Shown here in pieces: positions 2,015-45,822 of a stretch of DNA of 64,000 bases (positions within the stretch are counted from its first letter, which is position 1; each line of letters opens with the position of its first letter). The stretch lies in NCBI GenBank assembly GCA_035697325.1, contig DASSDB010000002.1:465232-529231 (forward strand), read 5' to 3'. The notes below the pieces were generated by a model. It was not told the DNA's origin. It made no database searches and saw only the letters and a list, made by a program, of their open reading frames with translations. The DNA comes from Candidatus Saccharimonadales bacterium. GTDB lineage: Bacteria > Patescibacteriota > Saccharimonadia > Saccharimonadales > Saccharimonadaceae. The translations under genes and the position numbers were made by a program.

Positions 2015-2467
2015 TTATTTATCGAAGTTTTTTATCTGTTCTTTGCCGTCACTGCGTACGGGTTGTTCGTAACCAGTTTGCCAGGCTGTTTGTATGAGTT
2101 TATGGAGCTCATCTAGGTCTATATCGGCAAGTCTCCGTATATAAATACAGCCTTTGCCTGTTTTGTATGTGCCCAAATCCGGAAACTTACTTGTCAGTTT
2201 TACAGCATCAAAGGTGACGTAAAGCGATATTTTGCCCTTGCGCGGACTAAAGCCGACTTGTAGCCACTGTACGTGACGGCCGCTCGCGTATGTCAAGTCG
2301 ACTGAGCCAAAACCAATAAGTGCCGTTCCCCACATAACTGGCCTCGCACCGGTTATATCACTGAATATCTGTAATAACTTTCTGCTATCAGCCCGCTGTA
2401 CGGGATCGTCTAACCCATCGATAAAGTCATTGACGCTTGCCTTATTGGCCGTGGTTTTGTTGCTCAT
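2015..2467 (-). CDS. DUF1801 domain protein
   Basis: The 150-residue product contains a DUF1801/YdhG-like fold: a helical start (VNDFIDGL, DPVQRADSRKLLQI), then TGARPVMWGTALIGFG and a KGKISLYVTF strand ending in GKGCIYIRRLADID. The function of the family is unknown; it is common in bacteria and has an antiparallel sheet fold. I place the start at the ATG at 2467 because it is preceded by AAGGAGCCAAG; a 26-residue longer reading exists but its beginning overlaps the TATACT promoter box near 2535. A second DUF1801 protein lies at 60511. Confidence 0.75.
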   Translation of the reverse strand: MSNKTTANKASVNDFIDGLDDPVQRADSRKLLQIFSDITGARPVMWGTALIGFGSVDLTYASGRHVQWLQVGFSPRKGKISLYVTFDAVKLTSKFPDLGTYKTGKGCIYIRRLADIDLDELHKLIQTAWQTGYEQPVRSDGKEQIKNFDK

Positions 2468-2689
2468 CTTGGCTCCTTTTTTATTCCCCAAGTTTCGTAA
2501 GATCGGCGATCCGATATCACTCATATATCTATTAGTATACGCCATGTCTCTTTTAAGATTCGACTCAATAGTTACTTTAATGTTCGATCCATTTAGTCGT
2601 TAAATCTTCAAACAAATAGCTCGAATCCAAGGGGCGTATGTTAGTTAGTTGTATCTAGGCACGTTATACTAGATAAGAAGGAAATATAT

Positions 2690-3244
2690 ATGGCAAATGT
2701 AGTGTTTTTAATGGCAATGTCGCTCGATGGATTTGTAAACGATAAGAATGGCGATTCCAGTCTCTTGTATCCCGATTTTGAAGAGTTGAATAAGAGTGAA
2801 GTAATAAAAGAGTTAATTCAGAAAACAGGTGCTGTCATAATGGGTCGCCGTACCTTTGAGATGGCCGAGGATCCAGACTGGTATGTAGGTAATTATGAAT
2901 TCCAAGTGCCCATTTTTGTATTAACCGAACAGGCACCCGAAAAACAACCCAAGGAGGACAAAAATATTAGTTTCACCTTTATTAACGATATCCAGGCGGC
3001 TACAAAAAAGGCTAAATGAGCAGCTGGAGACAGACAGGTTACCGTCGTTGGTGGTCCTAATGTCGGACGACAGCTTTTATTATTAGACTTGATTGATGAA
3101 CTACAGGTGGCTATTATGCCTGTGCTAATTGGTGAGGGAACTCGCTTGTTCGATCACCTCGAAAACACCCCGATTACATTGGAAAAAACGCGAATTGTCG
3201 AAAGCGGCCCAAGAACCGACATCTGGTTTAAGGTTGTTAAGTAA
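2690..3244 (+). pseudogene. RibD_C/DHFR-like reductase with in-frame TGA
   Basis: The reading frame 2690-3244 encodes a complete RibD C-terminal-like (dihydrofolate reductase family) protein of about 184 residues: FLMAMSLDGFVND at the start, AVIMGRRTFE in the middle, TVVGGPNVGRQLL and IMPVLIGEGTRLFD in the second half. A TGA stop at 3017-3019 interrupts it at residue 110 without any frame change. A CGA-to-TGA mutation would explain it; other genes here use TGA as stop, so recoding is unlikely. The family reduces pterin or pyrimidine-type substrates with NADPH. The start is supported by AGAAGGAAAT upstream and a TATACT about 20 bases further. Confidence 0.8.
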
Positions 3245-22314: not shown

Positions 22315-23286
22315 ATGACAACGACTTCTGAAGTCACTCACGACGAAGATGAGGTTCCCCGGGGCAAACCACTCCTGGAAGCGCCGCCTTCGTTCTGGAT
22401 GCGGGTTCTGGTTGTAGTTTTCGTGGTGGTGCCCTTCTTGGCACTCGCTGCCGCGTTGCCGCTGGCGTGGGTGGCCGGATGGGGCCCTGATCTGCTGATA
22501 GTTGCCATGATCGTGGTGATGTATACCATCACCTGCGCGGGAATTGGCGTGGGATTCCACCGCTACTTCACGCACGGGTCTTTCAAGGCCAACCGTGGTT
22601 TGCGCATTGCGCTTGCTGTGGCTGGCTCACTGGCTGGCGAGGGTGAGTTGATCCAGTGGGTTGCCGATCATCGGCGGCATCATAAGTTTTCCGACATGGA
22701 GAACGATCCCCATTCTCCGTGGCGATTCGGCGGGGGTCCCTGGGGGCTGACGAAGGGGTTGTGGCACGCTCACTGGGGTTGGCTGTTCACACGCGAGCTG
22801 TCCAATCGTGAGCGCTTTGCCCCCGATCTCCTGAAGGACAAAGATATCGCGCGCATCGACAAGTTGTTCCCGTGGTTCGTTACGGCCTCCCTTGGGCTGC
22901 CGGCGCTCGTTGCGGGGCTAGTGACGTGGTCGTGGCAGGAGGCCTTGTTGGCGCTTTTTTGGGCTGGCATTGTGCGGTTCGCTGTGCTCCACCACGTGAC
23001 GTGGAGTATCAACTCCATCTGTCACGTGTTCGGTGAGCGGCCGTTCAAGTCCCAGAAGGGCGACAAGGCGGCCAACGTCTGGTGGCTGGCTATCGCTTCT
23101 TTTGGGGAGTCGTGGCACAACTTGCATCATGCCGATCCCACTTGTGCCCGCCACGGGGTCGACAAGGGTCAGATCGACATCAACGCCTGGTTCATCCGTC
23201 TGTTCGAGAAGTTTGGCTGGGCGACGAGGGTCAAGTGGCCGAAGCCGGAGCGATTGGCCCAGAGGCGCCTGTCGCAGACGGTGTAA
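22315..23286 (+). CDS. acyl-CoA/fatty acid desaturase (GC-rich unit)
   Basis: The 323-residue membrane enzyme has the three histidine boxes of stearoyl-CoA 9-desaturases: HRYFTH (about residue 82), HRRHH (about 119) and HNLHH (about 260), plus hydrophobic pairs at about 38-75 and 180-215. It should insert a double bond into acyl chains using a di-iron centre, oxygen and electrons from a donor not seen here. Saccharibacteria rarely make fatty acids, so it may act on host-derived lipids (inference). GC-rich, alone, with its own SD leader and 12-bp terminator; this suggests transfer, perhaps from Actinobacteria. Confidence 0.88.
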   Translation: MTTTSEVTHDEDEVPRGKPLLEAPPSFWMRVLVVVFVVVPFLALAAALPLAWVAGWGPDLLIVAMIVVMYTITCAGIGVGFHRYFTHGSFKANRGLRIALAVAGSLAGEGELIQWVADHRRHHKFSDMENDPHSPWRFGGGPWGLTKGLWHAHWGWLFTRELSNRERFAPDLLKDKDIARIDKLFPWFVTASLGLPALVAGLVTWSWQEALLALFWAGIVRFAVLHHVTWSINSICHVFGERPFKSQKGDKAANVWWLAIASFGESWHNLHHADPTCARHGVDKGQIDINAWFIRLFEKFGWATRVKWPKPERLAQRRLSQTV

Positions 23287-23311
23287 GAATTCGGGTGTCG
23301 TTATCCAAAAA

Positions 23312-23344
23312 GGCGTGCGAGAGGTGGTATCACTCTCGCACGCC
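23312..23344 (+). terminator. desaturase terminator
   Basis: GGCGTGCGAGAG and CTCTCGCACGCC, a perfect 12-bp stem with a 9-base loop. Confidence 0.8.
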
Positions 23345-23396
23345 CATAAAAACTATTATTTCTTCTTCTTGAAAGTATTCCAGACCTTTTGGAAAA

Positions 23397-23426
23397 GCAG
23401 GATGGCGGTTTGAACCACCATCCTGC
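23397..23426 (-). terminator. terminator of serpin-like unit
   Basis: GCAGGATGG/CCATCCTGC with an inner GGTT/AACC, one mismatch, immediately 3' of the minus-strand gene ending at 23439. The far arm ends in AAAAGC. Confidence 0.75.
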
Positions 23427-23438
23427 CTCCTTGTAGTG

Positions 23439-24317
23439 CTACAGCTCGCTCAGGCTGCCCGCGGACTTCCAGGAGTCGTGGGCGGCGTAGAACAGCGCGA
23501 TCGGCAGCTCACTGCCCGCCTGGGTGAACCAGCCGGCGAACGGCTGGTCGAAGGTGATGGGCTTGGGGCTCATGCCACGGGTTGCGAAACCAGTGGCGAC
23601 CTTCGCCCGTGCGCCCTCCTCATTCATCCGCACCTTGAACTGCTGGAACGCCTGGTCGATGTACTGGCTGCCGCAGTTCACGCCGATCATCCACTCCAGC
23701 GGCACGCTGGTGGAAATGTCGATCATCGGCACGATGGCTCCGTCGATCCAGGTACGATCGGCCGGACGCTTGTCCGACATCGCTTGCATGGCAAGCTCAA
23801 GCAGGTCCAGCTCGTGATCGGGCTGGTCGGCCATCATGACCCAGACAGCCGAACCATCCTTGGTGTCCAGCCGAACCAGGTTGTCCTTCTGGCCCGGCAC
23901 GTCGAAGACCTCGATGCCGTGATCGGGCACTTCGAAGGCGGGGTAGGGCAAGTCCTTCAGACCTTCGTAGGAGAAGATCATGGTGCGGCTGGCCTTCGCC
24001 TTCCATTCCACCAGCATGTCCAGGATCGCAGCGGCACCGTAGCCGCCGTGGCCGATCTCACGGAACATCGGCTCGAAGCCGTTGTCCGTGAGGAACTTGT
24101 TGAGGATGGCTGCGTCGCTGGATGCCTCGGTCTTGAGGTCCTTCAGCTCCTCGACCTCCCCCTTGTGCTCGTGGTACCAGGTGAGAAAGCGCTCCTGAAC
24201 CTCATCGCTCATCGTCTCCCAGGTGGAGCCGTTGCTGATCTCGCCGGCCAGCCGCGTGAGGGCCTTGGCCATGGTGACGGGGTCGAGAGCGATCGTCCGG
24301 GAATCGAGCTTGGTCAC
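23439..24317 (-). CDS. serpin-like protein (GC-rich unit)
   Basis: The 292-residue product resembles the C-terminal two thirds of a serpin. In order: GQKDNLVRLDTKDGSAVWVMM (like the VELPY-MxIxLP strands), a helix, VPMIDISTS, FQQFKVRMNEEGARAKVATGF (hinge and start of a reactive-centre loop, cf. EEGTEAAAAT) and ITFDQPF, which fits the first seven positions of the serpin signature before diverging. The N-terminal helices typical of serpins are not evident and the length is short (family about 370-400). Serpins trap proteases irreversibly. The GTG start follows CGGAGGTAAATT. No signal peptide is seen. Confidence 0.5.
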   Translation of the reverse strand: MTKLDSRTIALDPVTMAKALTRLAGEISNGSTWETMSDEVQERFLTWYHEHKGEVEELKDLKTEASSDAAILNKFLTDNGFEPMFREIGHGGYGAAAILDMLVEWKAKASRTMIFSYEGLKDLPYPAFEVPDHGIEVFDVPGQKDNLVRLDTKDGSAVWVMMADQPDHELDLLELAMQAMSDKRPADRTWIDGAIVPMIDISTSVPLEWMIGVNCGSQYIDQAFQQFKVRMNEEGARAKVATGFATRGMSPKPITFDQPFAGWFTQAGSELPIALFYAAHDSWKSAGSLSEL

Positions 24318-35794: not shown

Positions 35795-35834
35795 AAAATA
35801 AATCTCCTGTGGCATTCGTCGGGGGATTTATTTT
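35795..35834. terminator. bidirectional terminator
   Basis: AAAATAAATC.CC and GG.GATTTATTTT arms between convergent genes; T-rich on both strands. The right edge overlaps the last codons of the minus-strand gene. Confidence 0.75.
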
Positions 35835-37368
35835 ATGCTTGCGTATTCCATCTCCAGTCACGAATTTCGGGCATATCGACTCCATGGGTAACTATGTAAG
35901 TGCGGTGCTCGAGAAGCTTTGTTTCCATGAGTTGTTTGAGCGGCTGTGCTTTTTCATTGGTAATCCCCAAGCGTTCAATTACATCAAGTACAAGATGAAA
36001 GCAGTCGAGATCGTTAAGGACGGTCATATCAAAAGCGGTAGTAATGGTTCCTTCTTCCTCGTAACCCCTTACGTGTAAATTACGATTTGCACGTCGGTAG
36101 GTCAGTCGATGTATTAGCCAAGGGTATCCATGAAATGCAAAGATAATCTCTTTTTCGCGAGTAAATAGCCTATCATACTCGGGATCGCTCAGGCCATGTG
36201 GGTGCTCGCTGGTTGGCTGTAGGCGCATGAGATCTACTACATTTACGACGCGGATTTTCAATTCTGGCATATGTGAGCGAAGAATCGAGACGGCTGCTAG
36301 GGTCTCAAGTGTGGGAACGTCTCCGGCGCACGCCATGACAACATCAGGATCGCCCCCATCATCGTTGCTGGCCCAGTCCCATACAGAGATGCCTCGTGCG
36401 CAGTGAAGGGCCGCTTCCTCCATGCTGAGCCACTGTGGGCTACTATGCTTGCCTGTAATGGTGAGGTTAATATAATTACGGCTTCGCAAGCAATGGTCAA
36501 CTACCGACAAGAGGCAGTTGGCATCCGGGGGTAAGTATATCCGAACCACGTCAGCTTTCTTGTTTACTAAGTGATCAATAAAACCGGGATCTTGATGAGT
36601 AAATCCGTTATGGTCTTGTCGCCAGACATGCGAAGTCAGAAGGTAGTTCAGTGATGGGATTTTAGCGCGCCATGAAAGCTCGGAAGCCATTTTGACCCAC
36701 TTGGCGTGCTGATTAACCATCGAGTCAACAATACGGACAAACGCTTTATAGCTATGAAATATGCCGTGTCGTCCCGTAAGTAGGTACCCTTCAAGCCAAC
36801 CTTGCGCTTGATGCTCGCTGAGCATGGAATCCATGACCGTACCTTCTATACTAAGCGATTTATCCGCGTCTTTAATACGCGCTGACCACTTACGGTCTGT
36901 AACTTCAAGAACGGACTCGAGCCGATTGGAAATAAGCTCGTCTGGTCCGAAGATTTTAAAATTGCGACTGGCTTTGTTGAGCACAACAACATCTCGTAGG
37001 TAAGGACCGATAGCATGAACGTTACCTTCACTGGCCGCCCCTCGGTAGTCGATTTTGACCTCGTAGTCTCTGAAGTCTGGCAGATGGAGTTCGCGCAGAA
37101 GATTGCCGCCATTTGCATGAATATTCTCTCCCATTCTTTGACCTTCGGGTGGAATAAATGTGCTGTATTCATGGTTAAGTTGGCCATTGGCATCAAATAG
37201 CTCGTCGGGGCGGTAGCTTTGAAGCCACTGTTCAAGGACTGCGACATTTTCTGGATGAGCCTCATCAACCGGAAGAGGAACTTGATGTGATCGAAAGTTG
37301 CCTTCAACCTTATGGCTATTAATTTGTTTTGGCCCTGTCCACCCTTTTGGGGAGTTGAAGACTATCAT
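35833..37368 (-). pseudogene. xfp: phosphoketolase lacking its N-terminal domain
   Basis: The 511-residue frame matches xylulose-5-P/fructose-6-P phosphoketolase from the mid-domain onward: NSPKGWTGPKQ and GNFRSHQVPL at the start, YLLTGRHGIFHSYKAFVRIVDSM, TSHVWRQDHNGFTHQDPGFID, the KHSSPQWLSMEEA segment and a complete XFP_C end (AFDMTVLNDLDCFHLV, VTHGVDMPEIRDWRW). A full enzyme has about 790-825 residues; the first ~280, holding the diphosphate-binding part of the thiamine site and catalytic histidines, are absent. The ATG overlaps the stop of a GC-rich ORF, so an insertion or deletion probably removed the 5' part. Confidence 0.8.
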
Positions 37369-37643: not shown

Positions 37644-38183
37644 TCAGACGTTTTTAATAAGATGAGAGATTTTTTCTCGATAATCGCGCTGATTAAACTG
37701 GCCTGGGTAATCGACAAGTTCGGTATTGAGCACGGTAAAACCAGCTTTTTTGAGCGGCTCTGCGGCCACATCGAACACGTTTGATTTTATGAGGATGATT
37801 TTGGTTTTTGGGTTGGCGAGTTTTTTAATACGCTTTATGAGACTGGGAAGAGCTTCGGCAATTTTTTCTTGACGCTCTTGCTTCGTAGTTTTATGAGACT
37901 GTGATACTTCAAGTGCTTCGATCATATAAAATCCATCGTCTTTGAAGCGCTGGAGCCATTTTTCTTTCTGTTCTTCGAGTGCGGGCTCCGGGATTTCGAG
38001 TGTTTCGGGGTATAGCGCACGGATGGTATTAATAAAAAGCCTATCGTCTTTTCTGATGCGATCTGTGTAATAGAACTGCCGGCTGCTTTGGGTAGACGGA
38101 GGTGGTGGCGGTGATTCGGCAACGAGTAGACACGCTATATGGTCTGGTTTATACGTTAAACGAAGTTTTTCGTAAGTGTGCAT
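37644..38183 (-). CDS. hypothetical protein, possible UDG-superfamily relative
   Basis: A 179-residue soluble protein. It begins near HIACLLVAESPPPPP, which resembles the xxAExP motif I of uracil-DNA glycosylase-like folds, and ends with a strand-helix segment TKIILIKSNVFDVAAEPLKKAGFTVLNTE. Classic UDG catalytic residues cannot be assigned, so the call is weak. The ATG is 6 bases after TATCAT (leaderless). Confidence 0.4.
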   Translation of the reverse strand: MHTYEKLRLTYKPDHIACLLVAESPPPPPSTQSSRQFYYTDRIRKDDRLFINTIRALYPETLEIPEPALEEQKEKWLQRFKDDGFYMIEALEVSQSHKTTKQERQEKIAEALPSLIKRIKKLANPKTKIILIKSNVFDVAAEPLKKAGFTVLNTELVDYPGQFNQRDYREKISHLIKNV

Positions 38184-38284
38184 AGCTTTATGATACAGGC
38201 TATAGAAATAAAGAACAGCATCCGTATGTTTTATGGAATCTTAGTTATAGCATAGTTGCACTATTTTCAAATATGTTTTTATAG

Positions 38285-38290
38285 TATAAT
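38285..38290 (+). promoter_or_regulatory. -10 box of the four-gene signalling operon
   Basis: TATAAT about 120 bases before the first gene. The intervening leader has small stems (GTCTC/GAGAC at 38344-38359; CGATC/GATCG around 38361) and ends in AAGGAGTAGCC before ATG 38414. Confidence 0.55.
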
Positions 38291-38413
38291 CGTACGCAAG
38301 TAGCAGGGCTTGACGCACACTGAAGCAATATTGGTGAGCATTGTCTCTTCAAGGAGACCTCGATCTGTTACGGATCGTTAACATCCAAAACTGTCGAACA
38401 AGGAGTAGCCATC

Positions 38414-39268
38414 ATGGCGCGCAACGTGCAGCTCGTGGTGATCGACCCGCAGTACGACTTCATGGACTACCCCGACTCGGCTCTGCCGGTGCCGGGTGCC
38501 CACGAGGACATGGTGCGGTTGGCCGCGATGGTCGACCGCATCGGTGACAAGCTGAGCCGCATTCACGTGACGCTCGACAGCCACCAGCTGGTCGACGTCG
38601 GTCACCCCACCATGTGGGTGGCTTCCGACGGCAAGACGCCGCCGCCCCCGTTCACGCCCATCACCTCGGACGACATCAAGGCCGGCATCTGGACGCCGCG
38701 GTACGCCAATGCCAAGCCGGCGGACCTCGGCGGGGAGACCATCAAGCAGTACATGATCAGGTACGCCTCGACGCTGGAAGCGCAGGGGAGTCACTTGCTC
38801 ATGGTGTGGGCGGTTCACTGCCTGATTGGTAGCAACGGCCACGCCGTGCAGGCCGATCTCAAGGCGTCGCTCGAACGCTGGGCGGCGAAGAACTTCGCCA
38901 CGGTTGACTACGTGACGAAGGGCACCAACCCCTGGACGGAGCACTACGGCGCCCTCAAAGCCGAGGTGCCCATGCCCAACGACCCCGGCACCGGTCTCAA
39001 CACCCGGCTGCTGGAAGTGCTGGAGGAGGCGGATATCATCGCCTTCTCCGGTGAGGCCCTCACGCACTGCGTGATGGAGACGGTGAAGCAGGTGGTCAAC
39101 GAGGTCGACGAGAAGCTGATCCGCAAGTTCCACTTCCTGACCGACGCGTCCTCGCCGATCCCGGCGGTGCCGAACGGTCCGGACTTCCCGGCCATGGCGG
39201 ACGCCTGGCTCCAGGAGATGGTGGGCAAGGGCATGGTCCTGACCACCACGCTCGAGTTCCTGTCCTGA
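38414..39268 (+). CDS. nicotinamidase/isochorismatase-like hydrolase
   Basis: The 284-residue protein has the cysteine hydrolase fold of nicotinamidases: LVVIDPQYDF (catalytic Asp11), THVTLD-type strand followed by DSHQLVDVGHP (metal-site Asp/His region), MVWAVHCLIGSNGHAV (cf. WPxHCxxGTxGA) and GEALTHCVMETV with the nucleophilic Cys about residue 221. It is longer than the usual ~200 residues. Nicotinamidase converts nicotinamide to nicotinate in NAD salvage; an altered amide substrate is possible. It is the first gene of a GC-rich operon with a vWA protein, a PP2C phosphatase and a kinase-like protein. Confidence 0.8.
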   Translation: MARNVQLVVIDPQYDFMDYPDSALPVPGAHEDMVRLAAMVDRIGDKLSRIHVTLDSHQLVDVGHPTMWVASDGKTPPPPFTPITSDDIKAGIWTPRYANAKPADLGGETIKQYMIRYASTLEAQGSHLLMVWAVHCLIGSNGHAVQADLKASLERWAAKNFATVDYVTKGTNPWTEHYGALKAEVPMPNDPGTGLNTRLLEVLEEADIIAFSGEALTHCVMETVKQVVNEVDEKLIRKFHFLTDASSPIPAVPNGPDFPAMADAWLQEMVGKGMVLTTTLEFLS

Positions 39269-39322
39269 TCCACAACCACACGGCGTAGCCTGAAAGACTG
39301 CGCCTTTCGAGAAAGGGTCATC

Positions 39323-40081
39323 ATGCCGAGACTGGCAGCGGAAAACGACGGTGAAATGCAGAACTACCAGGTGGGTGGTTCGAACTTCACCTTCACGGCC
39401 GCACGAATCGGTTCGCTTGGTGCCACGGAGTACACCCTCGTCACCATCGCGGTCGACGTCACGGGTTCGACTGCGGGGTTCGCCGACGAGTTGCACAAGA
39501 TGCTGCTCACCGCGATCGAGTCCTGCAAGAAGTCGCCGCGATCGGACAACCTGCTGGTGCGGGTCGTCACGTTCTCGACGTACATCGGGGGCGTGAACGA
39601 GCTGCACGGCTTCAAGCCGCTCAGCGAGATCGAGCCCACCGACTACCAGAAGTTCGTCCCGGAGGGGCTGACGCCCCTCTACGACGCCACTTTCGACGCC
39701 ATCGGCGCGACGGTGGAGTACGGCGGGGAGCTGATGGAGAACGATTTCCTGGCGAACGGGATCGTCTTCGTCATCACCGACGGCTACGACAACATGTCGG
39801 ACGCCACGCCGCGGGAGATCCGCGAGCAGATCCGGAGGGTCAAGGGCGAGGAGCGGCTGGAGTCGCTCCTCACGGTGCTGATCGGCATCAACGCCGCGCA
39901 GTACCGGGACTACCTGGAGACGTTCCGCAACGACGCGGGACTCGACCAGTACATCGACGCGGGTGACGCAACGCCCGGCAAGCTCGCGAAGCTCGCCACG
40001 TTCGTCAGCCAGTCGGTCTCGTCTCAGAGCGCCGCGCTCGGGACGGGTGGGCCTTCCCAGACCATCTCCGCGACCATCTGA
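39323..40081 (+). CDS. vWA-domain protein (TerY-like)
   Basis: A 252-residue protein whose core (about 35-220) is a von Willebrand A domain. The metal site reads VDVTGST (DxTGS variant of DxSxS, about 50), with Thr in GLTPLYDATFDAIG (about 115) and Asp in FVITDGYDN (about 148). The tail is Ser/Gly-rich. Such TerY-type proteins bind partners through the metal site. GAAAGGGTCATC precedes the ATG. It sits between the nicotinamidase and PP2C genes, the same vWA-PP2C-kinase order as in TerY-P triads. Confidence 0.85.
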   Translation: MPRLAAENDGEMQNYQVGGSNFTFTAARIGSLGATEYTLVTIAVDVTGSTAGFADELHKMLLTAIESCKKSPRSDNLLVRVVTFSTYIGGVNELHGFKPLSEIEPTDYQKFVPEGLTPLYDATFDAIGATVEYGGELMENDFLANGIVFVITDGYDNMSDATPREIREQIRRVKGEERLESLLTVLIGINAAQYRDYLETFRNDAGLDQYIDAGDATPGKLAKLATFVSQSVSSQSAALGTGGPSQTISATI

Positions 40082-40118
40082 ACGGTCGCACCCAACTGAG
40101 GAGTGGTGGGGCAGCTGG

Positions 40119-40124
40119 TATAAT
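40119..40124 (+). promoter_or_regulatory. internal -10 box before PP2C gene
   Basis: TATAAT 46 bases before ATG 40171 and after the vWA stop, suggesting that PP2C and kinase can be transcribed independently. Confidence 0.45.
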
Positions 40125-40170
40125 GCCGCTGCTCTACTACTCCTCCTTTTCAATTGCGGGAGGTCTTGCA

Positions 40171-41010
40171 ATGTACGCGGATTCGTATTTCATGATTGGC
40201 CATGCACACCTGCAAGGAGGCAAGCCGTGCCAAGACTACGCAACGGCGGCGGCTCTTTCTGAGAGTGCGGCCTACGCCATCGTGGCAGATGGGTGTTCTA
40301 CCGGCGGTAAAACCGACGTGGGCTCCCGAGCCTTGGCGTTGACGACGTCACAGGCAATCGTCAAGCACTGGAATACGGTGGGCAATGCGTTGGAGCGGAC
40401 TGCTCCAGCCCGCATCAACCTCGAGCAACAGGTGAACCTGGCGCCCGTGCGGCAATCGTTCGGGTGTGCCACTCGCGATATGCTGTCGACCTGTGTCTAC
40501 GCCTGCTATTCACCCGAGGGCGGATTTATCCATATCCAGGGTGATGGTGTCGTAGCATGGGAGGAAAGCGGGCACACGGTGATGGGTTGTTTTGAATGGG
40601 ACAACAACACTCCATTCTATCCGGCGTACAGTGCCGACAATTATGCGGAGTTCATCAAGGCTCACGGAGGTGACGTCAATGAAGACAAGCTGACGTATAC
40701 CTCTTGGGAGCGAACTCCGGATGGTTCGTTGAGTCAGCTGGATACGACTCGTTATACTCTCGGAAGGGGAATTCAGGGAATCACCCTGCCGCTTTCTGGA
40801 GGTCTGGAAAAAGTGGCCGTCTTCACCGACGGTGTTACTCAAGTTGAAGGGATGAAGTGGCAAGATGTCGTTTCGCAGCTATTGGCGTTCAAAACGACGG
40901 CGGGTGATTTTGCCAAACGGCGAATGATCCGCGCGGTCAAGGACGCGCAGCGGGAAGGCAAGGGGCCTATGGATGACATCTCGTATGCTGTCATTCTTTC
41001 GGACATGTAA
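40171..41010 (+). CDS. PP2C-family protein phosphatase
   Basis: A 279-residue PP2C-like protein: GHAHLQGGKPCQDYATA at the start, AYAIVADGCSTG (metal Asp, cf. VxDGxG), IQGDGVVAWEE in the middle, VAVFTDGVTQVEG (second DG) and PMDDISYAVIL at the end (cf. DD..). It should dephosphorylate Ser/Thr, possibly targets of the neighbouring kinase-like protein. The ATG at 40171 follows GGGAGGTCTTGCA; an upstream ATG overlaps the promoter. The kinase-like gene begins 12 bases after the stop. Confidence 0.85.
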   Translation: MYADSYFMIGHAHLQGGKPCQDYATAAALSESAAYAIVADGCSTGGKTDVGSRALALTTSQAIVKHWNTVGNALERTAPARINLEQQVNLAPVRQSFGCATRDMLSTCVYACYSPEGGFIHIQGDGVVAWEESGHTVMGCFEWDNNTPFYPAYSADNYAEFIKAHGGDVNEDKLTYTSWERTPDGSLSQLDTTRYTLGRGIQGITLPLSGGLEKVAVFTDGVTQVEGMKWQDVVSQLLAFKTTAGDFAKRRMIRAVKDAQREGKGPMDDISYAVILSDM

Positions 41011-41022
41011 GGACGGAAGGTC

Positions 41023-42765
41023 ATGAAACTGAACCGTCGGATTGACATCGAACTGGTGGGTAGAGGGAGAGTCTCGCTCAACCCGAATGATCACCTGGCA
41101 ACGGGTGGTGAAGCGTCGGTTTACCGGCTTGCCGGCTCGGTGATCAAGCTGTATACTGATTCGGACAAAATGCGGCAGCAGGGGATGATCGAGAAGCTTG
41201 ACATACTCGCTGGTTTCACGCATTCGGACATCGTCGCACCGCGGGGATTGGTTCTCGACAACCGAGGCAATCCCATCGGCTACTACATGGATTTCGTTGA
41301 TGGAGGTGAGGCACTCTCTCGTGTCTTCACCAACGACTTCCGAAAGCGGACTGGCTTTGGGAATTCAGGCGCTTTGCATCTGGTGGATCGGATGTTCAAG
41401 GTGCTTGAGTTTGCCCACAGCCACGGCGCGATCATGGTGGACCCCAACGAGCTCAACTGGACGACCGTTGGTTCGAAAGGATCGCAGAGGGATCCGCGTG
41501 TTCTCGATGTCGATTCTTGGCTGGCGGGCAACCATCGGCCGCCGACCATTCCTATGATGCCATCCATCCGTGACTGGCACTCAAAGGGAGTCGGGCGTGA
41601 GTCGGACCGCTTTGCGCTTGGAGTGGTGACATTCCAGGTTTTTGCGGGAATCCATCCGTACAAAGGGTCGCTCGACGGCTACAAGCCCAACGAGCTTGAG
41701 CGACGCATGCAGAACAACGTCTCGGTGTTTACTCGTGGCGTTCGCCTGAATCAGGCTGTGAGGGACTTCAGTTGTATCCCCGGACCGCTCCTGGGGTGGT
41801 ACGAAGCGGTCTTCCAGCAGGGAGATCGTAGCACGCCGCCTTCTCCATATGCCACCGTTGGTCGTACCGCTCGCACCACAAGGGTGGCGCGTATTGCGAC
41901 AACCTCGAGGGGTTCGCTCAATTACAAGCGGCTGTTCGAGGTGCCCGGTGACGGCATCACCCGCGTGTTCCACTGCGGTGTGGTGCAGACGGAGTCAGGC
42001 AAGCTGATCGATGTGGCGTCACAGCGTACTCTATCGCAGAGCGCGTCCGAGGTCTGCGAGGTTGTCAAAGCGGATGGCGGCTGGGTAATTGCTGAGCCTG
42101 GAAAGCGTTCGGCATTCAGCTTTGTCAATGAGATTAACCTCGTGTCTACGTCGCTCAGTGTGAACGTGGAGGCAAGGGGCCTAGTCCGCTACCAAAACCG
42201 TTTGTTTGCCGTGACCGACAGGGGCCTGGCCGAGCTGACGCTCAAGCAGTTCGCGCGGCCAATCCTTGGTGTAGGCCAGCAATGGCAGACATCGGTCAAC
42301 TCGACACGATGGTTCGATGGGGTGGGTGTGCTCGACACGATGGGGGCGACGTACTTGATTGCTCCATTCGGTGCAGATGCTTGCGCGCAAACCCGTGTTC
42401 GAGAGCTCGACGGTCTCCATGTCGTCGCAGCAAAAGCCGGTCCTCGTTTTGTGTCGGTTATCGTGATTGACGCGAAGGGTGAATATCGCAAGATGGAGTT
42501 CACCTTCGACAGGCAATACAGTACTTCCTACACCGTTTGGGAGGGAGGCGCTGAAAGTCCCGAACTCAACATGGCATTGCTCCCCCGTGGAGTGATGGCG
42601 ACGGTTGTTCGGGACGGTCAGCTCGTTGTGTTCGTCCCCACCTCGGGGAACGTCACGCGAGCGGACGACAAGGATGTCAAGACCGACATGCTCCTGGGCA
42701 ACTGGGAGGATCAGGTTGTATACATCCGTGATGGTCAGCTCTGGCATGTCAGCATGAAGAGCTGA
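41023..42765 (+). CDS. protein-kinase-like protein with C-terminal beta-propeller-like region
   Basis: The 580-residue product has a kinase-like domain at about 20-270: LATGGEASVYRL (Gly loop), VIKLYTD (Lys), HGAIMVDPNELNW (in place of HRDxKxxN; Asp and Asn kept, HRD and Lys lost), VLDVDSWL (in place of DFG) and SDRFALGVVTFQVFAGIHPYKG. Residues about 300-580 are strand-rich with repeated short blades, likely a propeller-like sensor. This fits the kinase of TerY-P systems, with a divergent active site. It ends the operon before a strong terminator. Confidence 0.75.
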   Translation: MKLNRRIDIELVGRGRVSLNPNDHLATGGEASVYRLAGSVIKLYTDSDKMRQQGMIEKLDILAGFTHSDIVAPRGLVLDNRGNPIGYYMDFVDGGEALSRVFTNDFRKRTGFGNSGALHLVDRMFKVLEFAHSHGAIMVDPNELNWTTVGSKGSQRDPRVLDVDSWLAGNHRPPTIPMMPSIRDWHSKGVGRESDRFALGVVTFQVFAGIHPYKGSLDGYKPNELERRMQNNVSVFTRGVRLNQAVRDFSCIPGPLLGWYEAVFQQGDRSTPPSPYATVGRTARTTRVARIATTSRGSLNYKRLFEVPGDGITRVFHCGVVQTESGKLIDVASQRTLSQSASEVCEVVKADGGWVIAEPGKRSAFSFVNEINLVSTSLSVNVEARGLVRYQNRLFAVTDRGLAELTLKQFARPILGVGQQWQTSVNSTRWFDGVGVLDTMGATYLIAPFGADACAQTRVRELDGLHVVAAKAGPRFVSVIVIDAKGEYRKMEFTFDRQYSTSYTVWEGGAESPELNMALLPRGVMATVVRDGQLVVFVPTSGNVTRADDKDVKTDMLLGNWEDQVVYIRDGQLWHVSMKS

Positions 42766-42778
42766 CCGACCGCAGCCT

Positions 42779-42819
42779 GGTGTGGCGCCGCTCGTATTTT
42801 TCGAGCATGGCGCCACACC
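42779..42819 (+). terminator. operon terminator
   Basis: GGTGTGGCGCC and GGCGCCACACC (11 bp) enclose GCTCG/CGAGC with a T-rich loop. Confidence 0.85.
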
Positions 42820-42867: not shown

Positions 42868-43590
42868 ATGAAACGGCTCGCACATTATTCGCAATATTTT
42901 CTCCGTAGCCCGCGGCTCATTAAAGAACTCGTTGGTCATACATCAATTAAAAAGACGGATACGGTATACGACATAGGCGCTGGCAGCGGTGTAATAGCTT
43001 CAGTGCTGGCGGCGCGAGCAGGAAGGGTTGTAGCTGTAGAATATGAACCACGTATGGCGGTCAAACTGCGCGACAATATGAGACGTTATTCGAATGTTAC
43101 TGTGCATGAAGGCGATTTCTTGACAATGGATCTGCCGCGCGAGTCGTATAAGGTATTTGCAAATATTCCATTCCATCTTAGCTCGCCGATTGTGCACAAA
43201 CTCACTGAAGCATCTTATCCGCCTGATGCGATCTATCTAATAGTGCAAAAGCAGTTTGCAAATAAGCTATTGCCCGACTCGAAAGCGTTTACCGGTCAGC
43301 TCGGTATGATTGTCGGTCCTCTATTTGCTGCTCGGATACGGAAACGTTTGAATCGGTCGGACTTTTGGCCGCATCCAAATGTAGACACCGTATTGCTCGA
43401 ATTGATTCGTCGGCCAGAACCACTCCTTCCGGTCGAGGATATGGTAAAGTACCGCCAGTTTATCGAGGTGTGCTTTTCTGATCCTAGAAAATTCGCTCGC
43501 ACGCCGAGGCAAAAAGCTGGATTGCCCGAGGGTATAAAACCATCTCAAATGAAGCTAGCCGATTGGGTGCGATTGTTTCAGCTTTCATAA
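42868..43590 (+). CDS. Erm/KsgA-family rRNA adenine N6-methyltransferase
   Basis: The 240-residue protein has the family order: HYSQYFLRSPRLIKELV (cf. SQNFL), VYDIGAGSGVIASVLAA (motif I), VVAVEYEP (motif II), VTVHEGDFLTMDL (motif III) and FANIPFHLSSPIV (motif IV, N-I-P-F) followed by YLIVQKQFANKL. NIPF with this C-terminal domain is closer to Erm 23S A2058 methylases than to KsgA, which usually has NLPYN. Erm gives macrolide-lincosamide-streptogramin B resistance. No leader peptide for induction is present; it is leaderless. AT-rich like the native genes. Confidence 0.8.
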   Translation: MKRLAHYSQYFLRSPRLIKELVGHTSIKKTDTVYDIGAGSGVIASVLAARAGRVVAVEYEPRMAVKLRDNMRRYSNVTVHEGDFLTMDLPRESYKVFANIPFHLSSPIVHKLTEASYPPDAIYLIVQKQFANKLLPDSKAFTGQLGMIVGPLFAARIRKRLNRSDFWPHPNVDTVLLELIRRPEPLLPVEDMVKYRQFIEVCFSDPRKFARTPRQKAGLPEGIKPSQMKLADWVRLFQLS

Positions 43591-44549: not shown

Positions 44550-45659
44550 TTACGGGTGCCACGGAGACGAGCTCGGGTTGCCCGGGCACGATGTGTGGTT
44601 CGTGCTGTTCATCTTGTTCTTGAAGCGCATCCACATGTCCTCGTGGTTGACACCGTCGTAGTTGCAGACGATGACCTGGCTTCGGATGTTCCTTCCGCCA
44701 ATGACCGGGTAGTCGCGAATGGCAGAAAACAGCTTGTTCTGGATACCAGCGTGGGCATAGCCGTTCACCGGGTGGCGGTAGTCGGCGGTGTACTCGCCGG
44801 CGAGGACCATCAGCACGTGGCTCTTGTCGCGCGCCAGCCAGTCCGCCAGCATCGCCGACTTGTTCGGGTAGGCGTTGTCGCAGGCACCACTGTAGTAGGC
44901 GTCCTTGTCGCCGGGGTCGATCAGCAAAACGAAATTGACGTTTTCCCAGCCGGGCGGCCGAGCCGACAAATACATGATCGGTCCGTTGCGACCCGAGCTC
45001 CAGCCGGCCAGCGTCGTGATGCGCTTGGCGGTCGGTGTTTGCGGAACGCTGTTGCTTGCGTTGCAACCGGGCTGCCAGATCTTCTGGTCCAGGGTGACCG
45101 TTGCCGGCGAAGGCGCGTTCACCCAAGTGTAGGCATGGTCGAAAGGCCAGCGGTTCTTGTACACCTTGATGCTCGGTCCGTCGTACGGCGAGTAGTACAG
45201 GGATCCGCCGCCCGGAAGGGGCTGCGAACTGTTACACGGCGGCACACCCGGAGCGACTTGATTGGCGCCGGTGCCATCGTTGACGAAGTGGGCGTTGATC
45301 CACCCCTGGTTGGATCGCGGGCCGGGAGCCGTGGGTCGGCTCGTGTTGTTTGCTTTGTACCAGATGGTGTTGCTTCCGCCGTCTCGGCGAGGCACGTTGG
45401 TCCCGCGGGCCCAGCACTGGAGCTGAACACGATGACCAGCATAGACACCCCAGCCACTCACCCGGCTTGTGTCGTTCCAGTCGGGGCTGTTGCGGAAGTA
45501 GATGCCATCCGGCGGGTACTCGGACGTGTTCATGACAGGGTAGGTCGGCCCCGCGGCGGCAGCCGGAATACTCGTAGCGAACAGTCCGCCAGCCACTATG
45601 GCCAATCCGGTCATGAAGATGACGAACGAGCGCCGCATCCGCGCAAAACGCGCAGTCAT
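44550..45659 (-). CDS. secreted SH3-like domain protein, actinobacteria-like (GC-rich unit)
   Basis: The 369-residue product has a signal peptide (MTARFARMRRSFVIFMTGL ... SIPAAAAG), so it is exported. The mature N-terminal part, DGIYFRNSPDWNDTSRVSGWGVYAGHRVQLQCWARGTNV through NQGWINAHFVNDG, resembles bacterial SH3-type domains common in secreted Streptomyces and related proteins. The C-terminal half (IMYLSARPPGWENVNFVLLIDPGDKDAYYSG) is unrecognised. The ATG at 45659 follows GAGGTGAAGGAT. Strongly GC-rich with own terminator; I infer transfer from an actinobacterium. Confidence 0.65.
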   Translation of the reverse strand: MTARFARMRRSFVIFMTGLAIVAGGLFATSIPAAAAGPTYPVMNTSEYPPDGIYFRNSPDWNDTSRVSGWGVYAGHRVQLQCWARGTNVPRRDGGSNTIWYKANNTSRPTAPGPRSNQGWINAHFVNDGTGANQVAPGVPPCNSSQPLPGGGSLYYSPYDGPSIKVYKNRWPFDHAYTWVNAPSPATVTLDQKIWQPGCNASNSVPQTPTAKRITTLAGWSSGRNGPIMYLSARPPGWENVNFVLLIDPGDKDAYYSGACDNAYPNKSAMLADWLARDKSHVLMVLAGEYTADYRHPVNGYAHAGIQNKLFSAIRDYPVIGGRNIRSQVIVCNYDGVNHEDMWMRFKNKMNSTNHTSCPGNPSSSPWHP

Positions 45660-45822
45660 ATCCTTCACCTCAATCTCTCGTAGTAGGTTCAACGCCTTGT
45701 AAAAGTTAAAGGCGCCTCCGTACAATAGTAATATAACTCCTGTACGAATGCCAGGTTACGATTACTTTATAAAAGCGTTAGTATAGTGGCCGTTGTATTT
45801 CCTGGCATGAGATAAAGACGAT

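Follow-up and report, generated by a model that had tools for sequence, protein, structure and literature searches.

The subject of this study is a four-gene operon in a 64,000-nucleotide stretch of a Candidatus Saccharimonadales genome (hereafter the window; GenBank assembly GCA_035697325.1, contig DASSDB010000002.1, positions 465,232 to 529,231). Its four intact plus-strand genes (38414-42765) encode an enzyme with a nicotinamidase fold, a von Willebrand factor A (vWA) protein, a PP2C phosphatase and a YegI-type protein kinase. The same genes occur together in viruses and, more rarely, in cells, and in several bacteria of the Candidate Phyla Radiation (CPR) the operon shares a palindromic operator with genes of nicotinamide adenine dinucleotide (NAD) metabolism. 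This linkage and the common operator suggest that NAD supply is controlled by phosphorylation in a way not described before. We consider it fairly probable that the unit combines a nicotinamidase with a dedicated phosphorylation switch, that its transcription responds to NAD in CPR bacteria, and that it is carried by phages. The gene content, linkage, catalytic residues, folds, operator and phylogeny described below, as well as the absence of the partner NAD families that we searched for, were obtained by computation.

Linkage of the four genes and their NAD context

Three viral scans, which started from gene 1, from the kinase and from the vWA gene, respectively, yielded 105 non-redundant loci when pooled. 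All four genes were present, always on one strand, in 95 of these loci within the DNA examined; 89 of the 95 had the gene order of the window and 5 had cyclic permutations of it. The nicotinamidase was found in 78 of the 80 loci of the kinase-seeded scan and in 32 of the 32 of the vWA-seeded scan. Concerning the two exceptions, one had gene 1 in a neighbouring locus (L256) and the other was ended by a contig edge. Chance adjacency of the nicotinamidase is ruled out by this viral linkage together with the cellular one. The initial annotation had coupled the nicotinamidase to the triad of vWA protein, phosphatase and kinase, but had allowed for a fortuitous neighbour should the triad elsewhere lack it. 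For the present subfamily the coupling is confirmed, although the more distant triad of E. coli has no such gene.

Pairwise distances of the four genes co-vary as well, with r = 0.79 for the nicotinamidase and the kinase against a permutation maximum of 0.24, and 0.53 inside the main clade. Most permutations preserve the nicotinamidase-vWA and PP2C-kinase pairs, which suggests that the operon is built of two sub-modules. The same two pairs differ in their GC content at third codon positions (GC3): in 83 of 118 operons both the nicotinamidase and the vWA gene have higher values than either of the other two genes, against 1 in 6 expected for exchangeable genes, and in the window the values are 0.92 and 0.91 for genes 1-2 and 0.62-0.67 for genes 3-4. 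Judging from this difference, the nicotinamidase and vWA protein may be expressed more than the regulators PP2C and kinase. In two loci with permuted order (L321 and L322; PP2C-kinase-nicotinamidase-vWA), the nicotinamidase carries a long N-terminal extension without family match and reaches 660 amino acids in total (L321:8713-10695, L322:7376-9358).

Viral contigs with the operon are up to 619 kb long. Genes for the Gp23 major capsid protein and the S77 prohead protease lie in some of the viral neighbourhoods, and gene 1 and the kinase were found in three records deposited as uncultured phage (LR records, 462-595 kb). A match to TerL (PF03237) occurred in 11 of 50 viral records, in 9 of them above the cut-off, and thus TerL does not prove phage status for every contig; it was set aside as the sole phage marker, and the capsid and prohead protease neighbours and the uncultured phage records were used as well. 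The initial annotation had considered a role during phage attack; the connection with phages is indeed strong in these other loci, but here the phages themselves are the carriers of the genes. Cellular occurrence is rare and patchy: in a set of 380 genomes from the whole phylum, 8 had any match, some of them weak. One closed CPR chromosome (G570) contains the operon.

In line with the link to NAD metabolism proposed in the initial annotation, NAD genes occur within ~10 kb of the operon; at least one was present in 46 of 95 viral loci, in 12 of 16 cellular loci and in 4 of 6 loci of Saccharimonadia. Recurrent neighbours are NAPRT, NAD synthase, NrtR, NadD, NMNAT-Nudix, Prs, NADAR and NAD-dependent DNA ligase; metallophosphoesterase genes are also frequent. 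In 11 loci NAPRT, NadE or NrtR is even lodged between the four genes. The family assignments of the NAD genes were verified. One genome (G516) has NadE-Prs-NAPRT-NadD near a vWA-nicotinamidase-kinase-PP2C operon, and a PRK09198-type phosphoribosyltransferase is present in locus L007.

The NAD link is further borne out by the shared operator. The palindrome TAGTGT-N7-ACACTA has 14 exact copies in the 340 kb of the 23 CPR loci, compared to 0.01 in dinucleotide shuffles. At other spacers from 3 to 11 no exact pair of arms was found in these loci, and 4.9 Mb of other loci contained no exact copy. It precedes the four-gene operon in L007 (twice), L008, L017, L309, L320, L322 and L323, and in CPR loci it also stands ahead of nrtR, NAPRT or Prs operons. 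Genome-wide, exact sites precede PnuC-NadR in all three of the genomes G245, G570 and G508; further sites in these genomes precede NAPRT, PncA-NAPRT, ADP-ribosylglycohydrolase, NAD kinase, NadC-NadA and the four-gene operon itself. Hence, the genes behind the palindrome form an NAD regulon. Because NrtR is encoded nearby and N7 likewise separates the arms of a known NrtR palindrome (PMC6800001), the likely regulator is NrtR, and the palindrome is very probably an NrtR box. Upstream of the nicotinamidase and nrtR genes of phages, the palindromes showed no clear common motif. In L326 (G245:C1:162000-166000), a single NAD box lies between canonical PncA-NAPRT genes and a divergent ADP-ribosylglycohydrolase gene, and NrtR is encoded close by. 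In L329 of G245 (2075-3127), a 350-aa protein without Pfam match lies directly behind an exact NAD box and is, by its position, a putative uncharacterised regulon member.

Catalytic residues and folds of the four proteins

Catalytic residues are retained in all four protein families, as counted over 101 four-gene loci. Gene 1 (38414-39268, plus strand, 284 aa) has the catalytic residues D11, K169 and C219 in 101 of 101 loci; its metal ligands D55, H57 and H135 do not vary either, and H64 is found in 97 of 101. The window protein matched no Pfam family (including PF00857) or NCBIfam family, and its relatives score 22-31 bits against PRK11609, where the cut-off is 174. A profile from a five-sequence alignment did retrieve the nicotinamidases of the PDB (5.3e-12). 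The AlphaFold model (pLDDT 96.9, 88-sequence alignment) has the Acinetobacter nicotinamidase and yeast Pnc1 as its closest solved folds, with a Foldseek value of 1.1e-12 to 2wta. By profile and model, gene 1 represents a long, divergent nicotinamidase subfamily that is predicted to hydrolyse nicotinamide. Compared to PncA and Pnc1, it shares the fold, the Asp-Lys-Cys triad and the metal ligands, but it is longer (270-290 aa) with an insert between H64 and H135, falls under the Pfam and NCBIfam thresholds, and is coupled to a kinase-phosphatase module. In Betaproteobacteria (Duganella, Hydrogenophaga and others), members of the gene 1 subfamily occur without the triad, beside NrtR, NAPRT and NadE.

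The vWA protein of gene 2 (39323-40081, plus strand, 252 aa) has only a weak Pfam match (VWA, 0.0057). Its metal ion-dependent adhesion site (MIDAS; D45-x-T47-x-S49, T117, D153) is retained, with Thr in place of Ser at position 47 in 20 of 101 loci. The C-terminal tail is Ser-rich and strongly conserved (S229, S231, S236). The open reading frame of gene 3 opens at 40123 and ends at 41010, and its product matches PP2C (PF13672) at 5.6e-15. Since a GGGAGGT ribosome-binding site precedes the ATG at 40171 and homologues begin there, the true start is probably 40171 (feature 40171-41010, plus strand). Numbered from 40123, the PP2C residues are D38, D56-G57, D141, D236 and D284-D285, of which the metal-binding Asp residues D38, D56, D236 and D285 are invariant.

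Gene 4 (41023-42765, plus strand, 580 aa) encodes a protein kinase that aligns with YegI and has a weak Pfam match (Pkinase, 0.0015); the Foldseek matches of its kinase domain (about residues 15-280; 41065-41862) are protein kinases. The initial annotation stated that the kinase has lost its HRD and DFG motifs. This is not what the conservation pattern indicates: the motifs G28G29E30, K42, V139-D140-x-N142-E143-x-N145 and D162 are invariant or nearly so, and the catalytic K42, D140, N145 and D162 are retained in 100-101 of 101 loci. The VDxNE(L/M)N loop and the D(V)D motif are a signature of the subfamily rather than decay, and a loss of kinase activity finds no support. For YegI, which lacks the canonical motifs as well, autophosphorylation and removal of the phosphate by PphC have been reported (PMC13232886).

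The strand-rich C-terminal half of the kinase, already suspected from the letters, is recovered in the AlphaFold model (residues 299-578; 41917-42756), which has about 28 strands, mostly with pLDDT >90, and is modelled as beta-propeller-like. It takes the place of the zinc ribbon of Saccharimonadia-type relatives. Cys pairs are present in the Saccharimonadia-type kinases (L007, L008, L010) and in YegI; the window kinase has none. A phage kinase (A0A8S5RYX0) matches the window kinase across almost its full length (1.5e-26).

Proposed function

In the mechanism that we propose, gene 1 would convert nicotinamide by hydrolysis into nicotinate, with which the Preiss-Handler route to NAD begins. In this route, nicotinate is converted to nicotinate mononucleotide (NaMN) by NAPRT, to nicotinate adenine dinucleotide (NaAD) by NadD and to NAD by NadE. 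Genes 2-4 would constitute a TerY-P-like module: the kinase and the PP2C phosphatase would have opposite effects on the pair of nicotinamidase and vWA protein, possibly at the conserved Ser-rich tail of the latter. This switch might set the output of the nicotinamidase or how it assembles with other NAD enzymes. The operon of many CPR bacteria lies behind the operator of the NAD genes, very probably under NrtR answering ADP-ribose or the NAD state. Control would then have two layers, a slow transcriptional one outside and a fast one by phosphorylation inside. Huge phages, which often carry the unit with NAPRT, NadE, NadD and Prs, would probably use it to rebuild NAD from the nicotinamide freed by host NADase defences. 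More tentatively, the unit could represent a third type of NAD reconstitution by phages, one that CPR bacteria have as well, where a Preiss-Handler entry enzyme is switched by a kinase-phosphatase-vWA module for rapid NAD control during NADase defence or host NAD fluctuation. If true, huge phages and CPR bacteria gain a phospho-regulated NAD entry step of relevance to NAD-depletion immunity.

Several observations weigh against this interpretation. About half of the viral loci have no other NAD gene within 10 kb. One CPR genome (G245) encodes a further PncA, of canonical type, behind the same operator, so that salvage there may depend mainly on an enzyme other than the triad-linked one. Another (G030) has 11 exact copies of the palindrome, several of them inside coding genes (L334-L340). 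Furthermore, NrtR (sought with the NrtR of a relative), NAPRT, NadE and PnuC were not detected in the window genome. Enzymatic activity and kinase substrates enter the proposal as predictions, as do the anti-NADase role and a benefit to the host of the window copy.

An alternative explanation, which we regard as rather unlikely, is that the nicotinamidase is merely co-transcribed, that kinase and phosphatase act on other proteins such as the host RNA polymerase or ADP-ribosylated targets, and that the operator only times expression. Kinase targets cannot be predicted in the present case, NADAR, metallophosphoesterase and NAD-dependent DNA ligase are equally among the frequent neighbours, and the separate PncA of G245 would fit this explanation too. 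Yet, the link between the genes is near-absolute, the nicotinamidase and vWA genes stay adjacent in most cyclic permutations and have a codon bias in common, and the gene distances co-vary, all of which weighs against this alternative.

The window copy and comparison with known systems

As the initial annotation described, the window contains a GC-rich unit of four intact same-strand open reading frames (38414-39268, 39323-40081, 40123-41010, 41023-42765), with a GC content of 0.60 versus 0.46 in the remaining window. The intergenic gaps are 54, 41 and 12 bp, and plausible ribosome-binding sites precede genes 1, 2 and 4. The host genome is 1.03 Mb in size and 99.9% complete; judged by its relatives and its gene content, it belongs to a Saccharimonadia-like member of the Patescibacteria (CPR). 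In the tree of gene 1, the window copy falls in a clade (SH-aLRT 99) with metagenome-assembled genomes of Parcubacteria type, one of Gracilibacteria and two viral contigs, separate from the Saccharimonadia type (98). Because of this position apart from the Saccharimonadia type, the operon was probably acquired horizontally. The GC content is weakened as proof of foreign origin, as GC3 of the nicotinamidase and vWA genes is raised in most lineages, and the claim is carried by the tree instead.

The operon sits in an accessory region whose gene content varies, between a truncated phosphoketolase upstream and an Erm-like methyltransferase downstream. The phosphoketolase frame (35833-37368, minus strand) is a remnant that matches model positions 287-797 only; its N-terminal 286 residues are gone and a stop lies just upstream. 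The Erm-like 23S rRNA methyltransferase (42868-43590, plus strand) scores 181 bits against the broad Erm model of NCBIfam (cut-off 212), and relatives have 57-69% identical copies at other genomic positions. Only this gene, and not its surroundings, is common to the compared genomes G029, G008, G001 and G035, so that no insertion boundary can be defined. A 179-aa frame adjoining the operon (37644-38183, minus strand) weakly matches phrog_3660, whose function is unknown. Elsewhere in the window are a GC-rich pair at 22315-24317, consisting of a DesA-type fatty acid desaturase and an opposite-strand 292-aa protein without family match (GC3 0.88), and a 391-aa protein with a likely signal peptide and no family match (44550-45725, minus strand, GC3 0.80).

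With NrtR, NAPRT, NadE and PnuC undetected, nicotinate would be made in the window genome without an obvious entry to its own NAD pool. Two candidates were rejected here: the sole NadE-like match is MnmA, and a PF00857 match at C2:249341, considered as a second nicotinamidase, scores best to other hydrolases. The region upstream of the operon (38184-38413) contains no NAD-box operator, with 8 of 12 bases as its best site, and the window genome has no exact site. Hence, the window operon is an intact but orphaned copy, cut off from its own NAD pathway. Possibly, it supplies nicotinate to a host cell or draws on one. The missing partner genes and operator, the truncated phosphoketolase, and the lack of this operon type in any close relative of the same genus or family might also be explained by a recently arrived passenger without function. 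We think this improbable, as the four frames are intact, every catalytic residue is present, and the extreme codon bias of the nicotinamidase and vWA genes is in line with selection on expression.

Least probable of all is a stand-alone defence or stress module whose nicotinamidase alters nicotinamide or NAD to block phage growth. In its favour, TerY-P-like modules whose kinase carries an OB fold have been reported to be antiphage systems in their own right, TerY-P is also found with CoCoNuT defence (PMC11090510), and the window copy does lie in an accessory region. Against it, most copies are found in phages, cellular operons are wired into NAD biosynthesis regulons, PADLOC matches to the kinase are weak and partial, and a nicotinamidase alone does not deplete NAD.

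The initial annotation identified the triad with TerY-P of the Ter stress systems. The three protein types, their order and strand, the MIDAS, the PP2C metal sites and the kinase core indeed agree with TerY-P, which is also known from CoCoNuT. However, the kinases of known TerY-P carry a zinc ribbon or an OB fold (PMC11090510), whereas the C-terminus of the present kinase is modelled as beta-propeller-like. Therefore, we class the triad as TerY-P-like rather than as a member, on the strength of sequence and model. In addition, the subfamily has a nicotinamidase in front in nearly every locus, and its context is NAD metabolism instead of ter or restriction genes. None of terB/C/D/E/F was met among the scanned flanking genes, a scan that included no genome search aimed at ter genes.

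The YegL-PphC-YegI set of E. coli has a homologous kinase (hhalign 98%, 261 columns), PP2C and vWA protein in the same order, and the GDxN...DSD kinase variant of YegI is reported to be active. In contrast to our operon, it has no nicotinamidase; the C-terminal half of YegI is unrelated, and the vWA match is weak (43%). No expression condition or target is known for the YegI-PphC pair (PMC13232886), and for most TerY-P and YegI-type triads we found no established function or natural client in the literature examined. In the branch described here, the triad is almost invariably linked to one and the same enzyme and, where it is cellular, to a single regulon; its client thereby becomes testable. 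We found no description of the nicotinamidase-triad unit in the open literature; a prior mention is possible in subscription papers, including the 2012 Ter analysis, which lay outside this coverage.

Similar to the NARP1 and NARP2 pathways and the jumbo-phage NadV-NadM/NadR sets, the operon is phage-borne and would supply NAD from nicotinamide. NARP1 consists of Adps-Namat (PMC12774641), and the NAD synthesis described for jumbo phages proceeds by nicotinamide phosphoribosyltransferase and NMNATs (PMC7824862, PMC9503650). The NARP1/NARP2 core (Adps-Namat or Nampt-NadM) is missing from our operon, whose neighbours are NAPRT, NadD and NadE. It would thus use the deamidated Preiss-Handler route via nicotinate, and it adds a kinase, a phosphatase and a vWA protein. 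The known NrtR regulon, although absent from the window genome, is resembled in many CPR loci by an nrtR gene nearby and an N7 palindrome before NAD genes. Our analysis yields a predicted NrtR operator for CPR bacteria, and their regulon differs in that it takes in the kinase-phosphatase-vWA module.

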